This document shows positions 1,322-34,383 of a DNA stretch of 43,808 bases, one piece after another. A model generated the notes under the pieces. The model ran no database searches. It had not been told where the DNA came from and was given only the letters and a program-made list of their open reading frames with translations. The position numbers were made by a program, and so were the translations under genes. The DNA lies in NCBI GenBank assembly GCA_017618075.1, contig JAFZUY010000040.1, forward strand, positions 1-43,808, given 5' to 3'. This DNA comes from Lachnospiraceae bacterium. Its GTDB lineage: Bacteria; Bacillota; Clostridia; Lachnospirales; Lachnospiraceae. Numbering within the stretch: position 1 is the stretch's first letter; each line of letters begins with the position of its first letter.

Positions 1322-1362
1322 ACTATATTTTAAAAAATCTTAATTATTCTTTTAAAAAAAGA

Positions 1363-1390
1363 TGGACAAATCTCAAAATTGTGTTATTAT
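1363..1390 (+). promoter_or_regulatory. extended -10 promoter of the RND/TetR operon
   Basis: TGGACA (1363-1368) and TATTAT (1385-1390) are separated by 16 bases, and TG at 1382-1383 makes an extended -10. Transcription would begin near 1397, inside the adjacent palindrome. Confidence 0.65.
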
Positions 1391-1396
1391 AGTTGT

Positions 1397-1414
1397 ACCG
1401 ACCGAACGGTCGGT
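1397..1414 (+). promoter_or_regulatory. TetR-type operator palindrome
   Basis: ACCGACCG and CGGTCGGT are perfect 8-base inverted arms separated by AA. The site sits immediately after the -10 and over the expected transcription start, where a bound TetR protein would block initiation. Repeated ACCGACCG-type palindromes are typical operators of TetR regulators of drug exporters. The TetR gene at the end of this operon is the obvious candidate. Confidence 0.75.
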
Positions 1415-1433
1415 CGGAAATGGAGATTATTTT

Positions 1434-4400
1434 ATGTCTAAATACAGTGTCAGAAAACCTTATACAGTCCTTGTGGGAGTGCTGCTTATTATAGTACTCG
1501 GAGTTGTTTCTGTTACGAGAATGACTGCGGATCTTTTACCAAATATGAGCTTTCCGTATGTTGTCGTAATCACCACATATCCCGGCGGAACGCCCGAAGA
1601 AGTTGAAAGAAATGTTACTGCGCCGATTGAAGCACAGATGGCTACCACTTCGAATATCAAGAATATTCAGTCGATGTCTTACAACAATTATTCGCTGGTT
1701 ATTCTTGAATACGAACAGAGCAGTAATATGGATTCCATAGTTATTCAGATGCAGCAAAAACTCGATCAGGTATCGGGTTCATTTCCTACAGGCGTTGGTT
1801 CGCCTCTTATCATGCAGATTGACCCTTCGATGTTACCCGTAATGGTTGCATCCGCGGATGTCGAAGGCATGAATCAGATTGAGATTACCGATTATGTAAA
1901 TACAACTGTTGTTCCCTATCTTGAAAGTACAGAGGGTGTTGCAAGCGTCACCACCATAGGAACCGTTGAAGAAAAGATTCAGATAACGCTTGATGAAGAC
2001 AAGATTGATAAAATAAACAAAGATGTTTTGGCAAAAATCGAAGACAGTTTTATCGATGCCCAGGAAGAAATCGATGAAGCAAAAGAAAAGCTCGATGAAG
2101 GAGAGCAGGAAATAAAGGACGGCCAGAGCAAGCTTGCCAAAGAACTCGCAAACGGAGCCAATGAAATTGTCAACGGCAAGATTCAGACATATATAGGTGA
2201 GGCTGCCATTGACAGCAATCTTACAACACTCTCGAATTTAAAACCTGCGCTTGAAAATGCCATAAATGCAGTCAATGCTTACAATCAGGAATTAAGCGTA
2301 TATATGGAGCAGTACAATACGCTGCTTACATATAAAAATCTTCTTGAAAACGGTACGGATGAAGAGATATTTGCGGCTACGGGAATGACCAGAGCGCAGC
2401 TTATGGCTGTTATGGCGGAGCTTTCCGCATCCGCACCTCAGCAAATGCCGGATTCGACAGCTGTTCAGCAGTCTCTTGCGGCAGTTGTTGCAACAGGCGT
2501 TGATTTAAGAACACTCGGTATTACTGCCGATTTTACGGATCTTCAGGCACTTTCACCACAGATGTCACGTGCTCTCGCACAGGTCAATACTTCAATCGCA
2601 ACTCTTCAGGCGGCAAAACAGCCTTTGACCGAAGGCAAGATTTCACTTGACGATGCTTATAAAAAATTAAACGAAGGGCTCATAAACGGCATACTCGAAA
2701 TCAGCAAGGGCGCCACAGAAATCGCCAATGCGAAAAATGCTCTTGAGCAGGGCCAAGACCAGCTTGACAATGCAAAGGAAGAGGCCGTTAAAGCAGCCGA
2801 TGTTTCAAATATAGTCACGGCGGAAATGCTCGGCAATCTTATCGTCGCACAGGATTTTTCTATGCCCGCAGGATATGTTCCGGACGGCAACAAACAGTAT
2901 CTTATCAATGTCGGAGACAGCGTTAATAACATAGAAGATCTTAAAAACATGGTTCTTTTGGATCTTGGAATGGACGGCATTAAACCCATCTGCGTAAAGG
3001 ACGTTGCCACAGTTGAAGTAGTAAACAACGCTTCCGAATCATATTCAAAAATCAACGGCAATCCCGCAGTAATGCTTTCGATAGAAAAGCAGACCGGATA
3101 TTCAACGGGTGATGTTACAGACAGACTGCTTGACCGTTTTGAGCAGATGGAAGAAGAAACTCCTGAGCTTAACATGGCGGTTCTTATGAACCAGGGCGTT
3201 TATATAGACATTGTTGTATCGAGCGTCCTTCAGAACATGCTTATCGGCGCAGCGCTTGCGATTATCATTTTGATTTTATTCCTAAAAGATTTTAAATCGA
3301 CATTTATCATTGCTTGTTCGATTCCTTTGAGCGTAATATTTGCGATTGTGCTTATGTATTTCTCGCACATTACGTTAAATATCGTTTCCCTTTCGGGTCT
3401 GGCGCTTGGCATAGGAATGTTGGTAGATAACTCCATTGTAGTTATTGAAAATATATACCGACTAAGAAAAGAAGGAGTTACAGTCAAAAAGGCAGCGGCA
3501 GAAGGTGCAAAGGGTGTAGGCGGAGCTATTGCGGCATCCACACTTACCACAATCTGCGTATTTGTTCCCATCGTATTCTCCAAGGGTATCACCAAACAGC
3601 TCTTTGTCGATATGGCATTAACCGTAGGATATACGCTTACCGCGTCCCTTATCGTGGCACTTACATTTGTTCCCGCGGCTTCTTCGCTGATGATAAAAGA
3701 CGGTGAAGAAAAGCAGACAAAACTCTTTGACAGAATAAGAGATTTATATGCTTCGTTTTTACGAAACGTATTAAAGGTGAAACCGCTTGTTTTAATCCTC
3801 GCGCTTTTGCTTCTTGCAGGAAGCGTTTATGCGGGATTTTACAGAGGATTTTCATTCTTTGACATGGAGGTCGAAGTCGATCAGATTTCAATGACCGTGG
3901 CTCCGCCAAAGGGTGCGGAAATGACGGATGAAGAACTGATGGATGTCTGCGAAGAGGTTACCGCAAGAATAATTGATATAGACGGCATTGATACAATCGG
4001 TGCAATGATGGGTGCGGACAGCCTTCTAAGTTCCTTCGGAATGGGAGGCGGAGGAGCCACATTCTATATTCTTCTTGATGAAGAAAGCGACCGTAAAATG
4101 AAGGATATCCAGGAAGATATCATCGACAGAACGAAGGATTTAAACTGCGATATCGATGTCACAACATCATCTACGGATATGACGTCTCTTTTAGGAAGCG
4201 GTCTCTCAATAATGGTTAAAGGCCGTGACCTTGACAAGATAAGGGAATACACTAAAGAAGTTGTTGCTATCATGGAAGAAACACCAGGTGTAATCGACAT
4301 CAACGACGGACTTTCCGATACCACGCCCGCACTAAAAATTCACGTGGATAAATTAAAAGCGATGGAGTATCAGATGACAACGGCACAGGTTTACATGGAA

Positions 4401-5384
4401 GTAATGAAAGCCATAATGCCCGATACCGCAACAGCCAATCTCTCCGCAGAAATCAAGGATTACGACATTTACGTTATCTCTGACGAGCAGAAAGACACCA
4501 CGCTTCAGGATATAAAAAATCTCAAATTCGATTACACCGACAGAGACGGAAAACACTATAAAATTCCTCTCTATAAAATAGTAACGTTTGAGGAAACCGA
4601 TACATTAAACATCATCAACCGTGACGCGCAGACCAAGTATATTAAAGTTACGGCTCAGATTGACGATGATCACAATATTTCATTTGTCGGCAACGAACTT
4701 GAAAACCGATTTAAAGAAATCGATATGCTTGAAGGTTACAAGATTGAGATGAGTGGCGAAGACGAAATGATTAAGGATGCCTTACAGCAGGTAGTTTTAA
4801 TGCTTATCCTTGCGGTAATATTTATTTACCTAATCATGGTGGCCCAGTTCCAGTCGTTCCTTTCGCCCTTCATCATCATGTTTACGATTCCGCTTGCATT
4901 CACCGGAGGCTTCTTCGCACTCTTTGCGACGGGCTACAATATATCGGTCATCGGCGCCGTAGGCTTTGTAATGTTAGCCGGTATCATAGTTAACAATGGT
5001 ATCGTTATGGTCGATTATATCAACCAGTTAAGAGAGGCCGGAATGGGTAAAAAGGACGCAATAGTCGAGGCTGCGCGAACGAGACTTCGTCCGATTTTAA
5101 TGACCACGCTGACCACTGTAATATCGATGTCAACACTGGCACTGGGACTCGGAGGAGGTTCATCGATGATGCAGCCGATGGCAATAGTTATGATAGGCGG
5201 ACTTGTCTATGGTACACTGCTTACGCTTCTGGTGGTTCCCTGTCTCTACGATTTGTTTAACTCAAACAAATCAATGAAGAAGGACGAATACGGAGAACTC
5301 ATAAAAGAAGAGGAAACCGTTTTATCACCTGTGGAAGCACAAGAAATAAATGATGGTATAATACATTTTGACAGCATGGAATAA
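1434..5384 (+). CDS. RND-family exporter permease (HAE1-like) with a large coiled-coil insertion
   Basis: The 1316-aa protein is an AcrB/SwrC-type proton-driven exporter. TM1 is at about residues 10-30, followed by a typical first porter segment with YPGGTPEEVERN. The second membrane bundle near residues 600-780 contains GMLVDNSIVVIENI, where the relay Asp is present and the next residue is Asn. The second repeat ends with a matching TM bundle. The family is usually about 1030-1060 aa. The excess is an insertion of about 260 residues (roughly 190-455) in the first extracytoplasmic loop. It is rich in charged coiled-coil (EEIDEAKEKLDEGEQEIKDG and later KNALEQGQDQLDNAKEE). No membrane-fusion or outer-membrane partner is adjacent. 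An in-frame ATG at 1362 lies on the promoter itself; GGAG at 1422-1425 supports the start at 1434. The substrate is unknown; a drug, surfactant or lipid is plausible. Confidence 0.9.
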   Translation: MSKYSVRKPYTVLVGVLLIIVLGVVSVTRMTADLLPNMSFPYVVVITTYPGGTPEEVERNVTAPIEAQMATTSNIKNIQSMSYNNYSLVILEYEQSSNMDSIVIQMQQKLDQVSGSFPTGVGSPLIMQIDPSMLPVMVASADVEGMNQIEITDYVNTTVVPYLESTEGVASVTTIGTVEEKIQITLDEDKIDKINKDVLAKIEDSFIDAQEEIDEAKEKLDEGEQEIKDGQSKLAKELANGANEIVNGKIQTYIGEAAIDSNLTTLSNLKPALENAINAVNAYNQELSVYMEQYNTLLTYKNLLENGTDEEIFAATGMTRAQLMAVMAELSASAPQQMPDSTAVQQSLAAVVATGVDLRTLGITADFTDLQALSPQMSRALAQVNTSIATLQAAKQPLTEGKISLDDAYKKLNEGLINGILEISKGATEIANAKNALEQGQDQLDNAKEEAVKAADVSNIVTAEMLGNLIVAQDFSMPAGYVPDGNKQYLINVGDSVNNIEDLKNMVLLDLGMDGIKPICVKDVATVEVVNNASESYSKINGNPAVMLSIEKQTGYSTGDVTDRLLDRFEQMEEETPELNMAVLMNQGVYIDIVVSSVLQNMLIGAALAIIILILFLKDFKSTFIIACSIPLSVIFAIVLMYFSHITLNIVSLSGLALGIGMLVDNSIVVIENIYRLRKEGVTVKKAAAEGAKGVGGAIAASTLTTICVFVPIVFSKGITKQLFVDMALTVGYTLTASLIVALTFVPAASSLMIKDGEEKQTKLFDRIRDLYASFLRNVLKVKPLVLILALLLLAGSVYAGFYRGFSFFDMEVEVDQISMTVAPPKGAEMTDEELMDVCEEVTARIIDIDGIDTIGAMMGADSLLSSFGMGGGGATFYILLDEESDRKMKDIQEDIIDRTKDLNCDIDVTTSSTDMTSLLGSGLSIMVKGRDLDKIREYTKEVVAIMEETPGVIDINDGLSDTTPALKIHVDKLKAMEYQMTTAQVYMEVMKAIMPDTATANLSAEIKDYDIYVISDEQKDTTLQDIKNLKFDYTDRDGKHYKIPLYKIVTFEETDTLNIINRDAQTKYIKVTAQIDDDHNISFVGNELENRFKEIDMLEGYKIEMSGEDEMIKDALQQVVLMLILAVIFIYLIMVAQFQSFLSPFIIMFTIPLAFTGGFFALFATGYNISVIGAVGFVMLAGIIVNNGIVMVDYINQLREAGMGKKDAIVEAARTRLRPILMTTLTTVISMSTLALGLGGGSSMMQPMAIVMIGGLVYGTLLTLLVVPCLYDLFNSNKSMKKDEYGELIKEEETVLSPVEAQEINDGIIHFDSME

Positions 5385-24707: not shown

Positions 24708-25784
24708 ATGGAAAAACAATCAACAAACAGATTATTTACAAAAGAAAACTCCTTAACCGTCAAAGGCATTGCGATACTTATGATGCTTTTTTATCATCTG
24801 TTCAGTTCCGCAAAAGATAACTTTGAACTGGGAGTGAATTACAGACCTTTTTCCGAAGATGTGTTTTTAATGATTGCCGGATTCGGAAATATCTGCGTGG
24901 CTGTATTTGTATTTCTCTCAGCATATGGAATATCCAAAAAAATCTACGACTCGAATGAGATAACACTTAAAAAAGCATATAGTGATTCTTTTAAGAGGTT
25001 TTTGAAACTGCTTTTCAATTTTGCGTTTATGTTTACCTGCATTAACCTTTTATGGTTTCATTGGTTTGATTATTCTCTTGCTTTCGGCGAAGGCAAACAG
25101 GGCTTTCTTGCATTTCTTTTGGATGGATTGGGACTCTCGCACCTCTTCTCAACACCGAGTCTTAATATGACATGGTGGTATATGTCCCTCGCTTATACAA
25201 TTATCTTCATTGTTCCGATTCTTGCGGTATTATGCAAAAAAATCGGCTATCCGTTTTTGGGACTTTCTTTTCTGATTCCGTTTATTATGCCTTTAAACGA
25301 GGATCTGGCACACTACTTTTTCGTGATAGGCGTCGGTATCGCATGTGCATACGGTAACTGGATTGAGAAGATAATTAATTCAAAAATACCTGTCTGGGTA
25401 AGATGGATAGCAGAAATCGTACTTATTGTTTTATCTGTCATAATAAGGGATAACGAATTTGTCAAAACAACGCTTATTTGCCAGGCGGATGCGATTTTTG
25501 CATTTTTAATCGTTTGTTTTGCGGTCGACATGGTTTCCTTTATCCCGGTAATAAGAAAGATTTTCTCGTTTTTGGGTAAATTCTCAATGAATATCTTTTT
25601 CGTTCATACCTTCTTTTACCTGATTTTGTACAGATATTACGTATATCATTTTAAGAGGTTTTATATTACCTATTTCATCCTTTTGGCGGTTTCGCTTATT
25701 CTTTCCATGGTAATAGAACTTCTAAAATTCCTGTTCCTAAAAGGATGCAAAGCAATTTTTCATAAAAAAACCAAACAAGAGTGA
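24708..25784 (+). CDS. acyltransferase family 3 membrane protein
   Basis: The protein is 358 aa. The segment SLTVKGIAILMMLFYHLFSS near residues 15-34, with a conserved His after it, is the signature of the acyltransferase-3 (OafA/YrhL) family. Those enzymes move acetyl or other acyl groups across the membrane onto surface sugars or peptidoglycan. About ten hydrophobic segments follow. AGGAGAGG just before the ATG is a good ribosome-binding site. It forms an operon with the DUF6020-like gene, so a cell-surface polymer is the likely target of both. Confidence 0.88.
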   Translation: MEKQSTNRLFTKENSLTVKGIAILMMLFYHLFSSAKDNFELGVNYRPFSEDVFLMIAGFGNICVAVFVFLSAYGISKKIYDSNEITLKKAYSDSFKRFLKLLFNFAFMFTCINLLWFHWFDYSLAFGEGKQGFLAFLLDGLGLSHLFSTPSLNMTWWYMSLAYTIIFIVPILAVLCKKIGYPFLGLSFLIPFIMPLNEDLAHYFFVIGVGIACAYGNWIEKIINSKIPVWVRWIAEIVLIVLSVIIRDNEFVKTTLICQADAIFAFLIVCFAVDMVSFIPVIRKIFSFLGKFSMNIFFVHTFFYLILYRYYVYHFKRFYITYFILLAVSLILSMVIELLKFLFLKGCKAIFHKKTKQE

Positions 25785-25793
25785 AAACTTCTT

Positions 25794-25821
25794 CTGCCCG
25801 AGAATCTTTCGGGCAGTTTTT
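25794..25821 (+). terminator. intrinsic terminator
   Basis: CTGCCCGA/TCGGGCAG forms an 8-bp stem with a 7-base loop and is followed by five T residues, nine bases after the acyltransferase stop. Confidence 0.9.
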
Positions 25822-25828
25822 AATTTTA

Positions 25829-25857
25829 TTTATAAATTCTATTGAAAGTAGTATAAT
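25829..25857 (+). promoter_or_regulatory. promoter of the ddl-murF-pyr-ispE operon
   Basis: A perfect TATAAT (25852-25857) has a weak TTTATA (25829-25834) at 17 bases. It lies right after a terminator and upstream of six closely packed genes. Confidence 0.7.
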
Positions 25858-25906
25858 TAATGCGATATGTGAAAATATGCCCACAGGGCGGATTGGAGAA
25901 TCAGAC

Positions 25907-26944
25907 ATGAATATTGTAGTACTTGCAGGGGGCAATTCTACCGAAAGAGATGTATCATTGGTTTCCGGTAAAGCGGTATATGAGGCTTTAAAATCCAAAG
26001 GCCACAATGTGGTTTTGCTTGATGTCTTTTTCGGAATAGAAGATGTTGATGTTGAAAACATATTTGAAGATAAAAGAGACTGGGCGGAAGGAATTAAAAA
26101 AATCGGCGTAGACAATCCCGACTCAGACTATATAAAGAGCTTAAAAGGTTCCGACAAAGATTTCTTCGGAAAGAACGTTCGAGAGATCTGCATGAAGGCA
26201 GACTTCGTATTTATGGCTCTTCACGGCGCCAACGGAGAGGACGGAAGAATCCAGGCAGCGCTTGACTTAATGCAGGTTAAGTATTCAGGCACCGATTATT
26301 TAAGCAGCGCCATCTGTATGGATAAATCCATCACCAAGGAACTCTTCATAATGAACGGCATCCGCACTCCGAAGGCTTATACGATAAGAACCGAGGACGG
26401 CTTTAAAGACGCCGTAAAAGAAATAGGCTTCCCGATGGTTGTTAAGGCACCAAACGGCGGTTCATCCGTAGGCGTATACATTGTAGATACCGAAGAAGAA
26501 GCATTTAACGCTATGAAGGAATGCTTCAAGCTTGATAATCACGTTCTCTTTGAACAGTACATTAAGGGAAGAGAATTTACCTGCGGCGTGATTGACGGTA
26601 AGGCACTTCCGATCGTTGAGATAGAGCCCGTCGAAGGCTTTTATGATTACAAAAACAAATATCAGGCAGGAAGCACGGTTGAAACTTGTCCCGCGAAACT
26701 GGACGAGGATATTACCCTCAATATTCAGAAGCATGCGGAAGAAGCATTCAAGGCACTTCATATTAAAACCTATGCCCGTATAGATTTTATTTTAAGCGAG
26801 CAGAATGAAGACTTCTGTCTTGAAGCAAATACGATTCCCGGTATGACACCGATGTCGTTAATACCTCAGGAGGCAAAGGTTTTGGGAATCGATTTCCCCG
26901 AACTTTGCGAGAAGATAATCGAGATATCGTTGAAAAAATATTAA
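25907..26944 (+). CDS. ddl: D-alanine--D-alanine ligase
   Basis: The 345-aa ATP-grasp enzyme joins two D-Ala for peptidoglycan. The N terminus VLAGGNSTERDVSLVSGKAV and the GGSSVGVYIV loop near residues 184-193 are typical. The C-terminal EANTIPGMTPMSLIPQ near 305-320 supplies metal and substrate contacts. An in-frame ATG at 25781 is inside the preceding gene and upstream of the promoter, so 25907 (GGAG nine bases upstream) is the start. It is the first gene of the operon, followed by murF, which uses its product. Confidence 0.95.
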   Translation: MNIVVLAGGNSTERDVSLVSGKAVYEALKSKGHNVVLLDVFFGIEDVDVENIFEDKRDWAEGIKKIGVDNPDSDYIKSLKGSDKDFFGKNVREICMKADFVFMALHGANGEDGRIQAALDLMQVKYSGTDYLSSAICMDKSITKELFIMNGIRTPKAYTIRTEDGFKDAVKEIGFPMVVKAPNGGSSVGVYIVDTEEEAFNAMKECFKLDNHVLFEQYIKGREFTCGVIDGKALPIVEIEPVEGFYDYKNKYQAGSTVETCPAKLDEDITLNIQKHAEEAFKALHIKTYARIDFILSEQNEDFCLEANTIPGMTPMSLIPQEAKVLGIDFPELCEKIIEISLKKY

Positions 26945-26989
26945 TCCGACAGGATATGCAGCGTAAGCCCTCGAAAAACGGAGGATACT

Positions 26990-29900
26990 ATGAAAATACT
27001 GACTATAGAAAACATTGTTTCCGCATTAGGTGCAAACCTTGTAAACGGAGACGAATTTAAAGAAAAAGAAATACTCGGAGTTGCAATCGACTCGAGAAAA
27101 GTGGAAAAGGATTTTCTCTTCTTTGCATTCAAAGGAGACAAGGTTGACGGCCACGATTATATAAAAGCTGCTTTCGACAACGGAGCGGCTGCTGTCGTAT
27201 GCGAAAGAGTTCCCGAAGGCGAAGAGGGAGTCTGCATCGTAGTTGAAGATTCTGTCGAAGCTATTAAAAAGCTTGCCACGTACTACAGAGAAAAACTCGG
27301 AATAAAAGTAGTAGGCGTCACGGGCAGTATCGGCAAGACCACTACCAAAGAATTTATCGCTACGGTTCTTTCGCAGAAATACAATGTTTTCCGTACCGAA
27401 AAGAATCAGAACAACCTCATCGGTCTTCCTCTTTCGATATTAAACATAAAAGAAAACAACGAAGTAGCGGTACTCGAAATGGGTATCAGCGAATTCGGTG
27501 AAATGACCAAGTTATCGGAGATTGCAAAGCCGGATATCTGTGTCATCACAAATATCAGCGCATGCCACCTTGAAACATTAGGTTCGCTTGACGGCGTGCT
27601 TAAGGCAAAGACCGAAATCTTTGAGCATATGAATCCCGAAGGAAGCGTGGTTGTATGCGGCGATGACGAGCGCCTTGCAAGCATTGAAGAAGTAAAGGGT
27701 AAAAAGCCCGTTACATACGGTTTTGACGAAAAGAACGCAGTACATCCCACCAAGGTTGTTAACCGCGGTTTATGGGGCAGCGAATGTACTGTGGAAGACA
27801 GCGACGGAATCTTTAATATCAGCATTCCTCTTGCAGGAAAGCATATGGTACTTGATGCACTTGCAGCTGTAAGTGTTGCAAAGCTCCTTGATGTATCCGC
27901 TGAGCAGATCGGCTTTGGTATATCCTGCGTCAAAGCACTTTCCGGCAGAAACAACATCATTCAGAAAAACAGCATCACAATAATCGATGACTGCTATAAC
28001 GCAAGTCCCGAATCAATGAAGTCGGGTCTTGATCTTTTAACGGAAGCAATCACTCCCACAGTGGCTATTTTAGGAGATATGCTCGAACAGGGCGAAAACG
28101 AGGAAAAGAGCCACGAGGAAGTCGGAGCATATGCAGTAGAAAAAGGCATCAACACAATCGTCTGCGTCGGACCTCTTTCAAAGAAAATGTATGATAAGGC
28201 ACTTTCCGAGTCAGCCGTTAAATCAAACACAGAAGTGCTCTATTTCGCGACTGTAGATGAGGCAATAGAAAATCTTAACACCTATGTAAAGAAAGACGAT
28301 ACGGTGCTCATAAAAGCTTCAAACGGCATGCATTTTAACCGCATATTAGAAGCAATCACAAGCGACGAAAAGAAGGATACTTTTGAAAAGAGAGAAGAGA
28401 AACTTTTCGAAGCAGCGCAGAAAGTTCCCGATGATGCTTTAATAGGAGAGATAAAAGACGTAACACCCTCCGATGCTCCTGTAGCGGAAGTAAAAGAAGA
28501 AACCGCAGAGCCCGCAGCGGCACCTGCAAAAACTAAAAAGGTTAAGAGTGCGGATCAGAAGGAAAAAGAAAGCGCCGGAGCACAGATTGGCATTATCATT
28601 GCACTTGTAATCGTTGCAATTCTCGCAGGTGTAATTGCGTTTGGCATTGTAAAGCATAATATATACAAGAACGCTACACAGGGTACGATAGTTTACTACG
28701 CAAGCAATAAGTACGGCACGAAGGGTCTCATCGAAGACAACGTGCTTGCAAAGTCGAGCGATGATATCGTATGGAATACCGGCAGTCCTTATGTTCAGAT
28801 GGGCTATGACGGAAAATATTACTACTACGCAGTTCCCGACGGCGGAAACTATGAGATTTTCGTAACCGACAAATACGGCAAGAACAAAAAGTCCATAGAG
28901 AAAAACGTAAGAAGATATGAAATCCTTGATAAAGGAAGCATCATCTTTATCTCGGGCAATGGTCTTTACACATACAATGTGAAAAAGGATGAAACAAACT
29001 TAATCGGCGAATCGGTTTCTAAATTTGTTTTAAACAAAAAGAAAACCGAAGTTGCATTCTTCACATACGACGGTGATTTAAAGCGCATGAAAATAGGCGA
29101 TCAGGAATCTCTTGAAGTAATTGATACCGCAGTCACATCATTTGAATGCGCCGATGAAAAATTAAAGACGGTTTACTATTTCAAAAAATCCAGCCTTTAC
29201 GTCGGCAAAAAGGGTAAGCCTTCACTTCTTTTAAGCGAAGATGCCACAAAGGTTTATTTCGCACATAAAGAAAAGAAACCCATCATATATTTTAACGACT
29301 CCAAGAACGCACTCTGGTATTACAACGGCAAGGCAAAAGAAGCCGTTAAGGTTACCGATAATGGTCAGAATGTCTACGGTGCAACTTTGGGTTATGCTTC
29401 TTTTATGATTTATAAAGACGGCAAATGGGAATTTGTAAATAAGGATAATGTTTATACTTTTAAGGAATTTGAAACCGGTTCATTCACGCAGATTGTGGGC
29501 GCGGATTCCAAGCATATTTACTTCCTGGACGTTGATTCCGACAAGAATACAAGTTCGGTTTATTCCGTATCCGCAAAGGGCTTTTCCAAAGAGAAAAAGG
29601 TTGTAAACGAGACCGCAAATGTTGACAGCGTTGAATATATCGGTGAAGGATATATCTTCGTATTAAAGGATGACGGCGGCGGAAAGAAGGACCTCTACGA
29701 AAGAGAAAAACTCGTTGCAAGAAATATTGAACCCGGCAGCCTTAAAAAGACCGAGTACGGCGATGATTTTGTCTTCGCATATCAGGTTAAGGACGACGAC
29801 GGATTCTACAAGATCGTGCTTTTCGACGGCAAGAACATAAAAGACATCGGCAGCAGCCTTGATACCGATATTGTTGCCATGAGCAAAAAGAAAATTTACT

Positions 29901-30007
29901 TTAGATCTCGCGGCGAAAAGTCAGGATTTGAAATCAAATATTTTAACGGTCGCAAAGCAAAGACATATAAAGAAAGCATTGAAGAGTTTAAATATATTCA
30001 GTACTAG
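26990..30007 (+). CDS. murF: MurF ligase fused to a transmembrane helix and extracytoplasmic domain
   Basis: The protein is 1005 aa, more than twice the usual 450. Residues 1-455 are a complete MurF, which adds D-Ala-D-Ala to UDP-MurNAc-tripeptide. They include the ATP loop VTGSIGKTTTKEF near residues 108-120, the downstream NQNNLIG, DDCYNASPESM, and the C-terminal VLIKASNGMHFNRI. Residues 455-528 form a Glu/Ala/Lys-rich linker. A single membrane helix follows at about 530-553 (IGIIIALVIVAILAGVIAFG). The last 450 residues are a Tyr/Lys/Gly-rich repeat region resembling DUF5050 or beta-propeller domains and would lie outside the cell. The frame is continuous, with no internal ribosome-binding site. 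GGAGG at 26980-26984 supports the start. Confidence 0.9.
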   Translation: MKILTIENIVSALGANLVNGDEFKEKEILGVAIDSRKVEKDFLFFAFKGDKVDGHDYIKAAFDNGAAAVVCERVPEGEEGVCIVVEDSVEAIKKLATYYREKLGIKVVGVTGSIGKTTTKEFIATVLSQKYNVFRTEKNQNNLIGLPLSILNIKENNEVAVLEMGISEFGEMTKLSEIAKPDICVITNISACHLETLGSLDGVLKAKTEIFEHMNPEGSVVVCGDDERLASIEEVKGKKPVTYGFDEKNAVHPTKVVNRGLWGSECTVEDSDGIFNISIPLAGKHMVLDALAAVSVAKLLDVSAEQIGFGISCVKALSGRNNIIQKNSITIIDDCYNASPESMKSGLDLLTEAITPTVAILGDMLEQGENEEKSHEEVGAYAVEKGINTIVCVGPLSKKMYDKALSESAVKSNTEVLYFATVDEAIENLNTYVKKDDTVLIKASNGMHFNRILEAITSDEKKDTFEKREEKLFEAAQKVPDDALIGEIKDVTPSDAPVAEVKEETAEPAAAPAKTKKVKSADQKEKESAGAQIGIIIALVIVAILAGVIAFGIVKHNIYKNATQGTIVYYASNKYGTKGLIEDNVLAKSSDDIVWNTGSPYVQMGYDGKYYYYAVPDGGNYEIFVTDKYGKNKKSIEKNVRRYEILDKGSIIFISGNGLYTYNVKKDETNLIGESVSKFVLNKKKTEVAFFTYDGDLKRMKIGDQESLEVIDTAVTSFECADEKLKTVYYFKKSSLYVGKKGKPSLLLSEDATKVYFAHKEKKPIIYFNDSKNALWYYNGKAKEAVKVTDNGQNVYGATLGYASFMIYKDGKWEFVNKDNVYTFKEFETGSFTQIVGADSKHIYFLDVDSDKNTSSVYSVSAKGFSKEKKVVNETANVDSVEYIGEGYIFVLKDDGGGKKDLYEREKLVARNIEPGSLKKTEYGDDFVFAYQVKDDDGFYKIVLFDGKNIKDIGSSLDTDIVAMSKKKIYFRSRGEKSGFEIKYFNGRKAKTYKESIEEFKYIQY

Positions 30008-30019
30008 GCGGAGACTTAC

Positions 30020-31369
30020 ATGATAATAAAGAACGGTCGAATAATCGATCCTGCAAACCAAACAGACGCCATCGGAGATATCTTTGTCAAAGACGGTATC
30101 ATAACGAATGTGATCATAAAAGAGAATGTGTCCGATAATGCGGACATATCGGATGAAGAAATTATAGATGCAACGGGCCTTGTCGTAATGCCCGGCTTTA
30201 TAGATGTTCATTCACATTTCAGAGATCCCGGATTTGAATACAAGGAAGATATTTATACCGGCGCCAAAGCAGCGGCAGCAGGCGGATATACGACCGTTGT
30301 TTTAATGTGTAACACAAAACCCACAGTGGATACTCCAAAGACTTTGGATTACGTTTTAAACAAAGGGAAAGAAACCGACATAAAAGTCGAATCCTGCTCA
30401 ACCGTAACCTACGGTTTAAAGGGCGAGAAGCTCACGGATTTCGACGAAATGATTAAGCACGGCGCTGTCGGATTTACCGATGACGGCATTCCTCTGATGG
30501 ATGAAAACATTCTACGCGAAGCATTCAGGAAAGCGAAAGATTATCCCGTCAGCCTTCACGAAGAAGATAAAACGCTCATAAAAAACAACGGCATCAATCA
30601 CGGAAAAGCAAGTGAGTTTTATGGTGTATACGGCTCGCCCAGAGAAGCGGAAATAAGTCTTATAAAAAGAGATTTACAGATAGCGCTCGAAGAAGGCGGA
30701 ATGATAGATGTGCAGCATATTTCCTCAAAGGAAGGTGTAGAACTTGTTAGAAACGCGTTAAAGAAAGACATGGCAAACCAAGGAGTTTCAGAAGGATTTG
30801 CTATGGAAAATAGCGCTGAAGGCAATTCGAAACCGACGAGGCATATTCACGCTGAAGCAACACCTCAGCATTTCTCGCTTACCGAAGATGCGTTGATAGA
30901 AAAAGGCACGCTTGGAAAATTAAATCCTCCGTTCAGAGAAGAGGCCGACAGACTTGCAATCATCGAAGGCCTTAAGGACGGAACGATAGATTTAATCGCA
31001 ACCGATCATGCACCTCACGCGGCAGAAGAAAAGGCCAAGAGCATAACTGAAGCTCCAAGCGGAATGATCGGTCTTGAAACTGCATTCGCACTTGCTGTTA
31101 CACATCTTGTAAATGAAGCAGGAATGAGTTTGTCGGATGTTGTAAGTAAGATTACGATTAATCCCGCAACTTTATATAAATTTGATCGCGGAACAATAAG
31201 TATTGGCAAACCCGCGGACATCACTATCGCTGATGTGAATGAAAAGTGGGTTGTAACGGAAGATGATTTCAAATCGAAGTCTCACAATTCGCCTTTTTTA
31301 GGAGAAGAACTTACAGGAAGAATCAGGTACACAATTTGCGATGGTCGAATAGTGTATAAGAACATATAG
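30020..31369 (+). CDS. pyrC: dihydroorotase
   Basis: The 449-aa class I dihydroorotase closes carbamoyl-aspartate to dihydroorotate in pyrimidine synthesis. DVHSHFRDPG near residues 62-71 carries the metal-binding HxH, and LIATDHAPHA near 330-339 is the second metal motif. Between the usual QHISSKEGVELVR and HAEATPQHF segments, a stretch of about 20 extra residues (near 255-273, with GVSEGFAMENSAEGNSKP) departs from the compact family form. It lies 12 bases after murF and 8 before pyrK. Confidence 0.94.
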   Translation: MIIKNGRIIDPANQTDAIGDIFVKDGIITNVIIKENVSDNADISDEEIIDATGLVVMPGFIDVHSHFRDPGFEYKEDIYTGAKAAAAGGYTTVVLMCNTKPTVDTPKTLDYVLNKGKETDIKVESCSTVTYGLKGEKLTDFDEMIKHGAVGFTDDGIPLMDENILREAFRKAKDYPVSLHEEDKTLIKNNGINHGKASEFYGVYGSPREAEISLIKRDLQIALEEGGMIDVQHISSKEGVELVRNALKKDMANQGVSEGFAMENSAEGNSKPTRHIHAEATPQHFSLTEDALIEKGTLGKLNPPFREEADRLAIIEGLKDGTIDLIATDHAPHAAEEKAKSITEAPSGMIGLETAFALAVTHLVNEAGMSLSDVVSKITINPATLYKFDRGTISIGKPADITIADVNEKWVVTEDDFKSKSHNSPFLGEELTGRIRYTICDGRIVYKNI

Positions 31370-32154: not shown

Positions 32155-33056
32155 TGAATACAAAAGTTACCATCGCCGGTGTGGAATTTAAAAATCCCGT
32201 TATGACTGCATCGGGAACATTCGGCTCAGGAATGGAATATTCGCAGTTCGTGGATTTAAACAGATTAGGCGCAGTTGTTACCAAGGGTGTCAGCAACGTA
32301 CCCTGGACGGGCAACCCTACTCCGAGAGTGGCAGAGGTTTACGGAGGCATGCTTAATGCCATTGGCCTTCAAAACCCCGGCGTCGACGTCATGATTGAGC
32401 GAGACCTTCCTTTCCTCGCAAAGTACGACACAAAGGTAATCGTTAATGTTTGCGGAAAATCTGTCGAAGATTATATTGAAGCGGTTGAGAGATTAAACGA
32501 TACCGCGGTCGATATGTTTGAAATAAACGTATCCTGCCCCAACGTAAAAGAAGGCGCCATCGCTTTCGGACAGAAGGCAGATGCACTTTTTAACATAACA
32601 GATAAAATCAAAAAAGCTTCAAAGAAACCCATCATCATGAAGCTTTCACCAAATGTCACGGACATTACGGAGATGGCGAAGGCAGCAGAGGCAGCAGGTA
32701 GCGATGCAATCTCGCTTATCAATACCATTACCGGAATGAAGATTGACATTGAAAGAAGAAAAATGGTGCTTGCAAACAAAACCGGCGGAATGTCCGGCCC
32801 TGCGATAAAGCCTGTTGCGGTAAGAATGGTTTACCAGTGCTCAAAGGCCGTTAAAATCCCCATCATCGGAATGGGCGGTATTATGAACGGCGAGGATGCC
32901 ATCGAGTTTATTATGGCAGGTGCGAGCGCAGTAGCAGTGGGCGCAGCAAACTTTATCAATCCTTATGCAACAATAGATGTGGTTGAAGGTATAGAAAGAT
33001 TTATGATTTCCCACAATATTGCCGATATAAATGATATCAGAGGTTGTGTGGAATAG
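32154..33056 (+). CDS. pyrD: dihydroorotate dehydrogenase B, catalytic subunit
   Basis: The 300-aa class 1B enzyme oxidises dihydroorotate using FMN and works as a complex with PyrK, whose gene is immediately upstream. Key segments are NPVMTASGTFGSGMEY, the ISCP-type EINVSCPNVKEG near residues 122-133 with the catalytic Cys, and IIGMGGIMNGEDAIEFIMAG near 239-258 for FMN phosphate. AGGGAGGTGG provides a ribosome-binding site. pyrE and pyrF are not in the window. Confidence 0.95.
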   Translation: MNTKVTIAGVEFKNPVMTASGTFGSGMEYSQFVDLNRLGAVVTKGVSNVPWTGNPTPRVAEVYGGMLNAIGLQNPGVDVMIERDLPFLAKYDTKVIVNVCGKSVEDYIEAVERLNDTAVDMFEINVSCPNVKEGAIAFGQKADALFNITDKIKKASKKPIIMKLSPNVTDITEMAKAAEAAGSDAISLINTITGMKIDIERRKMVLANKTGGMSGPAIKPVAVRMVYQCSKAVKIPIIGMGGIMNGEDAIEFIMAGASAVAVGAANFINPYATIDVVEGIERFMISHNIADINDIRGCVE

Positions 33057-33081
33057 GAGCAAATGTTTCGGGGGATATGAT

Positions 33082-34383
33082 ATGGCAATTAACAAAACCG
33101 TAAGAGAAAAAGCATATGCTAAGGTTAATCTCGGACTCGATGTTTTAAGAAAACGCGAAGACGGATATCATGAAGTAAAAATGGTGATGCAGACCATCGG
33201 TATCTGCGATGAACTGATTATATCCACTTCGGCCGATACTCACGGAGTTACCCTAAAAGCAGACGTAGACAATCTTCCGCTTGACGATACCAACTTAATT
33301 GTCAAAGCGGCAAATCTTATAATCGAAAAATACGGCATCAAACAGGGCATTGAAGTAAAGCTCATAAAAAATATTCCGATGTCAGCAGGCCTCGCGGGCG
33401 GAAGCTCCGATGCGGCTGCAACACTTCGCGGAATGAACAGACTCTTTGGCCTCGGTTTAACCGATGAAGAACTTTGCAGACTCGGAGTAAGAATCGGCGC
33501 AGACGTGCCTTACTGCATCCGCGGCGGCACATATTTGGCAGAAGGCTTGGGCGAAATCCTCACTAAACTTCCCGACGTGCCTCAGTGCACTGTGCTTGTT
33601 GCAAAACCCAAATTCGGCGTTTCCACAGGCTACGTATATCAGAACTTAAGACTTGACCAGGTGCGCAAACATCCCGACGTAGATGCGGTTGTAGACTGCG
33701 TCAAGAAGAATGACTTAAAAGGCATCGCTTTCAACATGGAAAACATCCTCGAGACAGTTACCATCCGCGACTATCCTTTTATCCAGATCATAAAAGACAT
33801 AATGAACGACTTCGGCGCTTTGAAAGCCCTGATGAGCGGCAGCGGTCCTACAGTATTCGGATTGTTTGATAACAAGGCAAATGCAGAAAGGGCAGCAGTT
33901 ACTTTACGAGATCTCGACGATGTCGGCGATGTAATTGTTACATGCTTCGAAAATCTTAACTCCGACGAAGTCACCAAGAAAGCTCAGATTACTCTTAAAA
34001 GTGTAATGGATGCCGACGAACCTTCGATTGAAGTTCATGACTGTATCGCAGTTGAGAAGCGCGGAACCATCAGCGTATCCTATCGCGAAAAAGATCCCGA
34101 GACCGGTTCCGAAATCCTCAACACCATGACCATCAGCGACAGGCGCCTTGATTACAGCAAGGCAGGCTCAACCAGCACCCACATGGTCATCACTCCTGAT
34201 GAGGCAACTAGTACGATTTACAGAACTCCTTTCGGAAACATCATCATTGATATCATCTGCCATGAGTATGTTCTCAACGAAATCGCTGACAGAATCATGC
34301 TCGAACTTGATTATGATGTGATGCAGGGCGGCACAAACGTTAACCATTGCAATATGACTATTGAGATAGAGTACAACATCTAA
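33082..34383 (+). CDS. ispE: IspE kinase fused to a DUF1934 (YwiB-like) domain
   Basis: The protein is 433 aa. Residues 1-285 are 4-diphosphocytidyl-2-C-methyl-D-erythritol kinase of the non-mevalonate isoprenoid pathway, with AYAKVNLGLDVL at the start and the GHMP ATP loop PMSAGLAGGSSDAAATLRGM near residues 97-116. Residues 300-433 match the DUF1934 lipocalin-like family: SIEVHDCIAVEK, STHMVITPDEATSTIYRTPF and LELDYDVMQGGTNVNH. The two are normally separate genes. An upstream in-frame ATG at 33031 lies within pyrD; GGGGGA at 33070-33075 supports 33082. No internal ribosome-binding site precedes the second domain. It is the last gene of the operon. Confidence 0.88.
   Translation: MAINKTVREKAYAKVNLGLDVLRKREDGYHEVKMVMQTIGICDELIISTSADTHGVTLKADVDNLPLDDTNLIVKAANLIIEKYGIKQGIEVKLIKNIPMSAGLAGGSSDAAATLRGMNRLFGLGLTDEELCRLGVRIGADVPYCIRGGTYLAEGLGEILTKLPDVPQCTVLVAKPKFGVSTGYVYQNLRLDQVRKHPDVDAVVDCVKKNDLKGIAFNMENILETVTIRDYPFIQIIKDIMNDFGALKALMSGSGPTVFGLFDNKANAERAAVTLRDLDDVGDVIVTCFENLNSDEVTKKAQITLKSVMDADEPSIEVHDCIAVEKRGTISVSYREKDPETGSEILNTMTISDRRLDYSKAGSTSTHMVITPDEATSTIYRTPFGNIIIDIICHEYVLNEIADRIMLELDYDVMQGGTNVNHCNMTIEIEYNI

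Follow-up and report, generated by a model that had tools for sequence, protein, structure and literature searches.

In the window, that is, the whole stretch of 43,808 nucleotides of Lachnospiraceae DNA analysed here, one uninterrupted open frame encodes a complete MurF, a disordered linker, a single predicted membrane helix and a folded, predicted outer domain of about 440 residues. Apart from the linker, the first-pass annotation had proposed this layout, and it is borne out by the frame itself, by profile matches, by hydropathy and by an AlphaFold model. MurF is normally a free enzyme, which finishes the soluble building block of the cell wall. The fusion is real and conserved within the genus, and the gene for its outer part (hereafter X) stands separately in several relatives. 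All sequence tests applied identify the enzyme half as a MurF, and its partner would be of a new kind.

Results

The fused gene and its MurF portion

The features under discussion are collected in Table 1. In the AlphaFold model of the full-length protein, the MurF portion is ordered, residues 471-534 have pLDDT values below 50, and the helix is followed by strands up to the C-terminus. The pTM of this model is 0.48, and the mutual placement of the two folded parts is thus not predicted.

Table 1. Location of the features discussed (window coordinates, except for the last three rows, which refer to the loci named)
Feature	Position	Strand	Basis or remark
murF-X fused gene	26990..30007	+	one open frame from ATG to TAG, 1005 codons (1005 aa)
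Shine-Dalgarno-like GGAGG	26980..26984	+	sequence; just 5' of the ATG at 26990
MurF ligase, residues 1-458	26990..28363	+	profile matches, intact motifs
Linker, residues 459-528	28364..28573	+	model, alignment
R-x-x-[KR]-L-F motif, R468-F473	28391..28408	+	alignment rows
Predicted membrane-spanning helix, model helix 522-563, hydrophobic core 533-551	28553..28678	+	hydropathy, AlphaFold
Predicted extracytoplasmic domain, residues 564-1005	28679..30004	+	AlphaFold: large beta-propeller, about 40 strands
Best conserved stretch of the predicted propeller, residues 881-960	29630..29869	+	12-sequence alignment
ddl, D-Ala-D-Ala ligase	25781..26944	+	upstream neighbour; profile matches
pyrC	30020..31369	+	downstream neighbour; followed by pyrK, pyrD and ispE
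ispE-DUF1934 fusion, same operon	33031..34383	+	profile matches
MurF-like ligase with predicted N-terminal helices	L055:5298-6947	-	sequence scan
MurF-like ligase with predicted N-terminal helices	L056:3787-5490	+	sequence scan
MurF-like ligase with predicted N-terminal helices	L060:1956-3572	+	sequence scan

Residues 33-455 match the TIGR01143 model over positions 1-417 of its 418, at 416.5 bits against a cut-off of 288.6, and the Pfam families Mur_ligase, Mur_ligase_M and Mur_ligase_C all score over their cut-offs. The motifs TGSIGKTTT (111-119), VLKAKTE (203-209) and DDCYNA (333-338) are intact, and across 51 aligned fusions there is conservation of TGSxGKT[ST]T, KAKTE and DDCYNA, which we take to be the ATP-binding and catalytic motifs of MurF. 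The best solved MurF structure aligns with residues 20-450. The MurE-MurF model NF008896 is matched only at positions 523-962 of 965, its MurF half (residues 24-462); the fused protein is not a MurE-MurF fusion.

Of the 31 genus genomes, 25 have a MurF over the TIGR01143 cut-off, and each of these has exactly one. The window genome (G000, 89% complete) has a single place over this cut-off, so that the claim that the fused protein is the sole MurF found there held by this measure. With one MurF per genome, the fusion should perform the D-Ala-D-Ala adding step wherever it occurs, and its MurF is presumably functional.

The linker and the membrane helix

By hydropathy there is one hydrophobic segment in the window protein, and one in each of at least 49 full-length clusters of fusions. 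Lys and Arg are more numerous before the helix, towards MurF, in 47 of the 51 aligned fusions (equal in two, reversed in two), a positive-inside bias which predicts MurF on the inside and the outer domain outside. The product is thus predicted to be a single-pass membrane protein, N-in.

The linker varies from 36 to 130 residues among the aligned fusions. The motif R-x-x-[KR]-L-F appears, 17 or 19 residues past residue 449, in 28 of the 38 rows of the window's group, to which the G012 group and the P0034-P0040 group also belong. The 13 rows of the other fused group lack it, as do the 12 unfused MurF C-ends examined; near duplicates are counted among the rows. No in-frame ATG, GTG or TTG lies between residues 447 and 560 of the window protein, and an internal start yielding free X is thereby ruled out in the window. 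Such starts are also absent from five of the 11 other scanned linkers of the window's group (G004, G013, G020, G023 and G026), and at least one is present in the other six (G006, G008, G009, G010, G016 and G029). The linker of G012 (L039) carries an in-frame ATG with an AAGGAG site upstream, inside the fused gene, from which some free X could also arise by internal initiation.

The outer domain

When the C-terminal 480 residues were modelled alone (pLDDT 92.4, pTM 0.85), about 40 strands were obtained, and the outer domain is predicted to be a large beta-propeller of roughly 10-11 blades by strand count. The first-pass annotation had described a repeat-rich domain of 450 residues: the folded outer part stands, its size is corrected (Table 1), and "repeat-rich" holds in the sense of the blades of a predicted propeller. 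Foldseek listed mostly propellers, at TM-scores of just 0.21-0.48, and an assignment of function from the fold was abandoned, since the structure matches are only generic propellers and no residues for catalysis or ligand binding could be picked out. The propeller family PF16755 scored 17.4 bits, below its gathering cut-off of 29.6, and the separate X gave no match over a cut-off in Pfam or NCBIfam.

A profile search with X found at least seven proteins among 7997 candidates scored. X was rejected as a widespread family, the matches listed comprising only two pieces of the same family and five distant propeller-like proteins. Two of these distant matches, the stand-alone P0123 and P0124, resemble X in having, by eye, a hydrophobic segment before a propeller-like part; unlike the fused protein they are not joined to a Mur ligase, and P0123 has zinc ribbons instead.

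Residues 881-960 show 70% mean pairwise identity among 12 sequences, as compared with 43-56% for the other propeller blocks. Ratios of dN/dS were calculated by the Nei-Gojobori method for eight pairs within the window's group, dS being high in several; the pair G010-G026 was saturated for X and linker and was left out for these. The ratios are 0.02-0.06 for MurF (eight pairs), 0.05-0.12 for X and 0.03-0.14 for the linker (seven pairs each), and in the four closest pairs 0.02-0.04 for MurF and 0.05-0.08 for X. The low values for X show the propeller part to be under purifying selection, though it is more variable, and evolves faster, than MurF.

Distribution in the genus and the family

The fused frame is present, at full-length identities down to 37%, in 16 of the 31 genus genomes, that of the window included (G000, G001, G004, G005, G006, G008, G009, G010, G012, G013, G016, G020, G023, G026, G027 and G029). 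G007 is a 17th, in which the frame is cut by contig ends, the second piece beginning within MurF and continuing into X; P0018 and P0020 are full-length proteins sharing its linker. A separate X occurs in five genomes (G011, G018, G019, G022 and G030), and in four (G002, G003, G014 and G017, the contig of the last beginning inside murF) there is none between murF and pyrC. In three further genomes (G021, G024 and G025), which hold a different MurF-like gene, neither a MurF over the cut-off nor X was found, while G015 and G028 fall outside this classification. An X-only query matched 21 of the 31 genomes and missed G012, which was recovered by the full-length query.

A search of 250 family genomes yielded X in that of the window only, and in none of the 248 sampled from other genera (G014 being of the same genus). 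Its lack there, and from the interval between murF and pyrC in four genomes of the genus, shows the arrangement to be dispensable elsewhere. In the protein database, at least 49 full-length fusion clusters, the window's included, were found among 120 listed of 1701 hits; these are P0002-P0052 without the fragments P0015 and P0035, and P0045, aligned over 46% only, reads the same. In a survey of MurF lengths such as the first-pass annotation had proposed, a search with another MurF matched 123 of 150 genomes, and five of these matches lie in frames of more than 600 residues, counted stop to stop (the window 1020, G151 877, G066 727, G123 641 and G099 605).

For some of these genomes there are named records, namely rumen, abomasum and horse-faeces MAGs, together with the genome of Lachnospiraceae bacterium G41. 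The fusion lies in the latter on a contig of 206 kb, and its record is not marked as a MAG, as the other 13 are; by our reading of that record G41 is a cultured isolate. According to the accessible text of PMC9562222, G41 is enriched under a fibre-rich diet.

Gene order and origin of the fusion

The order ddl - murF - [X] - pyrC - pyrK - pyrD is common to most of the genus loci long enough to show it. X lies directly after murF in four of the five genomes where it is separate: in G011 and G022 it starts 15 bases past the murF stop, in the same frame and with one stop codon between, and in G019 and G030 it starts 41 and 100 bases past the stop, respectively, out of frame. In G018, X adjoins pyrC and is removed from murF by about 13 kb, in which other genes lie. 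X is thus separable from murF, and it is dispensable in sister species. The interval in G018 (L064, C28:88000-102000) contains an ORF of 2292 aa and a pair of similar ORFs, each about 255 aa long. The old start region of X is still readable in the linkers of G001, G005 and G027, and the peptide NEATCQAGKE, in frame after the murF stop of G019, resembles NEPACEAGKE in the linker of G001. The first-pass annotation had associated separate genes in relatives with a sequencing error; such relatives do exist, but the fused form is kept in many genomes beside them, so that the separate genes show its origin and not an error.

In a MurF tree of 40 rows, which omits the near duplicates G004, G013, G020, G022 and G023, the 29 fused rows do not form one clade; the log-likelihood is 101 worse if they are held together (p-AU 2.8e-17). 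G011 is a long branch in this tree, and towards long branches the AU test has the same bias as the model. The fewest changes between the fused and separate states on this tree, by parsimony, is two. Either two fusions, or one fusion and several separations, fit the tree. The two fused groups differ in their linkers and junctions, and these unlike junctions favour two fusions; the fusion has thus probably happened at least twice. G019 lies outside the fused group of G001, G005 and G027 in the MurF (88) and X (90) trees, and has no resolved place in the 40-row MurF tree. It falls inside the second fused group in a concatenated tree of neighbour genes (86), which set the outgroup G034 (ddl only) beside G011 and was not used for counting; if this placement is right, G019 is a re-separation. 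Within the window's group no return to separate genes was seen; one close-X piece of 305 residues (P0122) was seen.

The same operon contains a second fusion, that of ispE with DUF1934, in the window, G007 and G016; the two genes are adjacent but separate in G003, G021, G024 and G025 (matches of 2e-4 to 8e-8). No DUF1934 match was found in the other eight of the 14 loci searched, G012 included. The occurrence of this fusion in the same clade implies that gene fusion here need not mean functional linkage, and two neighbour fusions in one operon may be a habit of the lineage. From the known pathways, ddl, the pyrimidine genes and ispE of the operon would feed the lipid II pathway. Further upstream, window positions 1362-5384 encode an AcrB-type transporter of 1340 aa. 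Its match to the Pfam model, which has 1021 positions, falls into two stretches; the better one covers residues 485-1299, and an extra part may thus be inserted.

Discussion

Proposed working and alternative explanations

In some members of the genus, a gene X, coding for a single-pass protein with a disordered cytoplasmic tail and an outer propeller, would have lain after murF and before pyrC; murF and X would then have merged, probably at least twice, into one whose product serves as the cell's only MurF. The ligase may work in the cytoplasm, where a flexible tether some tens of disordered residues long would let it reach its soluble substrates, while the D-Ala-D-Ala adding step would be held at the membrane, near MraY and MurG. 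Both of these enzymes act at the membrane and use the product of MurF. The propeller would most likely be an outer docking module on the wall or on a component of wall synthesis, whereby the precursor would be finished where the wall is built. As a whole, this account of X fused to murF, with a membrane leash and a docking propeller, is offered tentatively, as plausible but short of probable.

The fusion of ispE and DUF1934 in the same operon makes a serious rival of neutral fusion, whereby the border between two adjacent genes was simply lost, the enzyme behaves like any other MurF, the job of X is unrelated and the covalent link is useless. The position of X next to murF in four genomes, with one stop codon and 15 bases between them in G011 and G022, agrees with such an event, as do the separate ispE and DUF1934 neighbours of other genomes and the many relatives whose MurF is without X. 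Neutral fusion accounts less readily for at least two fusions by parsimony, kept in proteins down to 37% identity, for the R-x-x-[KR]-L-F motif at a near-fixed distance from MurF in most rows of one group, and for the lack of any re-separation seen in the window's group, P0122 aside. It is considered somewhat unlikely.

The first-pass annotation had further suggested that an external sensor domain could steer precursor synthesis. In one form, which we hold to be quite unlikely, the propeller would sense the condition of the wall, or else lipid II or an enzyme of the wall, and would set both the amount and the place of the precursor by clustering or capture, not by a rigid relay. In the stricter form, an external ligand bound by the propeller would alter MurF activity across the membrane. 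The architecture of outer propeller, one helix and inner enzyme speaks for such a sensor, as does the conserved stretch 881-960; yet the linker is disordered and variable, at 36-130 residues, with nothing between helix and MurF to relay a conformational change. The linker thus argues for a tether over conformational signalling; a relayed signal is not favoured, and a rigid outside-in sensor is very unlikely.

Alternatively, a protease might split the two halves after insertion, the fusion merely fixing their ratio. The long disordered linker would suit such processing, and the start codon in the G012 linker offers free X by another route, but the window linker has no in-frame start and no cleavage site was identified in the fusion, and this explanation is judged decidedly improbable. 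That the fused frame is an assembly or sequencing artefact has a negligible chance and was ruled out, in spite of the MAG label on 13 of the 14 named records, by its presence in 16 genomes, one from a record not marked as a MAG, and by dN/dS of 0.03-0.14 within the linker.

Relation to known systems

The first-pass annotation knew of no described system of this kind, and none was found here: in the open-licence literature searched, no Mur ligase that spans the membrane and carries an outer domain came to light, nor any membrane-tethered MurF. In the accessible text of PMC4929429, Mur enzymes recognise MreB, MraY and MurG, and MurF binds MreB directly, while MurD, MurE and MurF show no mutual binding without MreB or MurG; a membrane-associated complex of MurF, MraY and MurG is proposed there as conceivable. 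The murF-X fusion can be read, by analogy, as a covalent form of this idea. The MurE-MurF fusion of Bordetella and others likewise joins a Mur ligase and a partner in one polypeptide, and the Bordetella protein binds MurG (PMC6420597); the published reading, in the accessible parts of PMC6420597 and PMC4929429, is channelling and scaffolding at MurG. The partner in that case is another ligase from the same pathway, connected through about 20 residues, whereas here it is a membrane helix with a predicted outer propeller. Domains are also fused to MurF in MurF-Ddl and MurF-HAD proteins (P0058, P0056 and others) and in an NCBIfam model of MurF with alanine racemase; unlike murF-X, the Ddl and HAD fusions among the matches listed have no predicted membrane segment.

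As far as these sources show, it is from studies of binding and co-localisation that the cytoplasmic Mur enzymes are held to form a membrane-side complex with MraY and MurG. A lineage whose only MurF is covalently membrane-tied would make the question of this complex directly testable, its close relatives without the fusion serving as natural controls. The outer domain represents an unstudied family of putative membrane-anchored propellers, and is a candidate for connecting the external wall with precursor supply inside the cell; if the propeller does read the wall, outside-in control of the cytoplasmic peptidoglycan branch would reside in one polypeptide.

Other MurF-type enzymes predicted to be membrane-attached

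Four proteins (P0054, P0055, P0064 and P0067, the last identical to the MurF of G066) consist of MurF and a C-terminal domain with at least five predicted membrane segments, for which no Pfam match was found. Like the fusion they would be membrane-attached forms of MurF; they belong to other lineages, and differ in having about five or more segments and no outer propeller.

A further type, with L055, L056 and L060 as examples (Table 1), is found in the same genus and family and is likewise predicted to be membrane-attached, without a propeller. In the six ligases examined, 4-5 predicted helices precede the P-loop, where the UDP-binding domain would be, and PF01225 was not found in the three scanned. 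They occur in G021, G024 and G025, and of 150 family genomes 14 gave strong matches, a count which leaves aside five further matches at 31-34% identity. A MurF over the cut-off is absent from all 17 genomes, and these ligases seem to replace the usual MurF. A hydrolase-like ORF lies nearby in six of six loci and a Ddl-like ORF in four of the six, the loci and the patterns being short. As a speculation, such a ligase might act on a lipid-linked precursor. The several predicted ways of attaching MurF-type enzymes to the membrane in this family suggest a wider trend. Another long MurF match is that of G151, in the frame of 877 residues.
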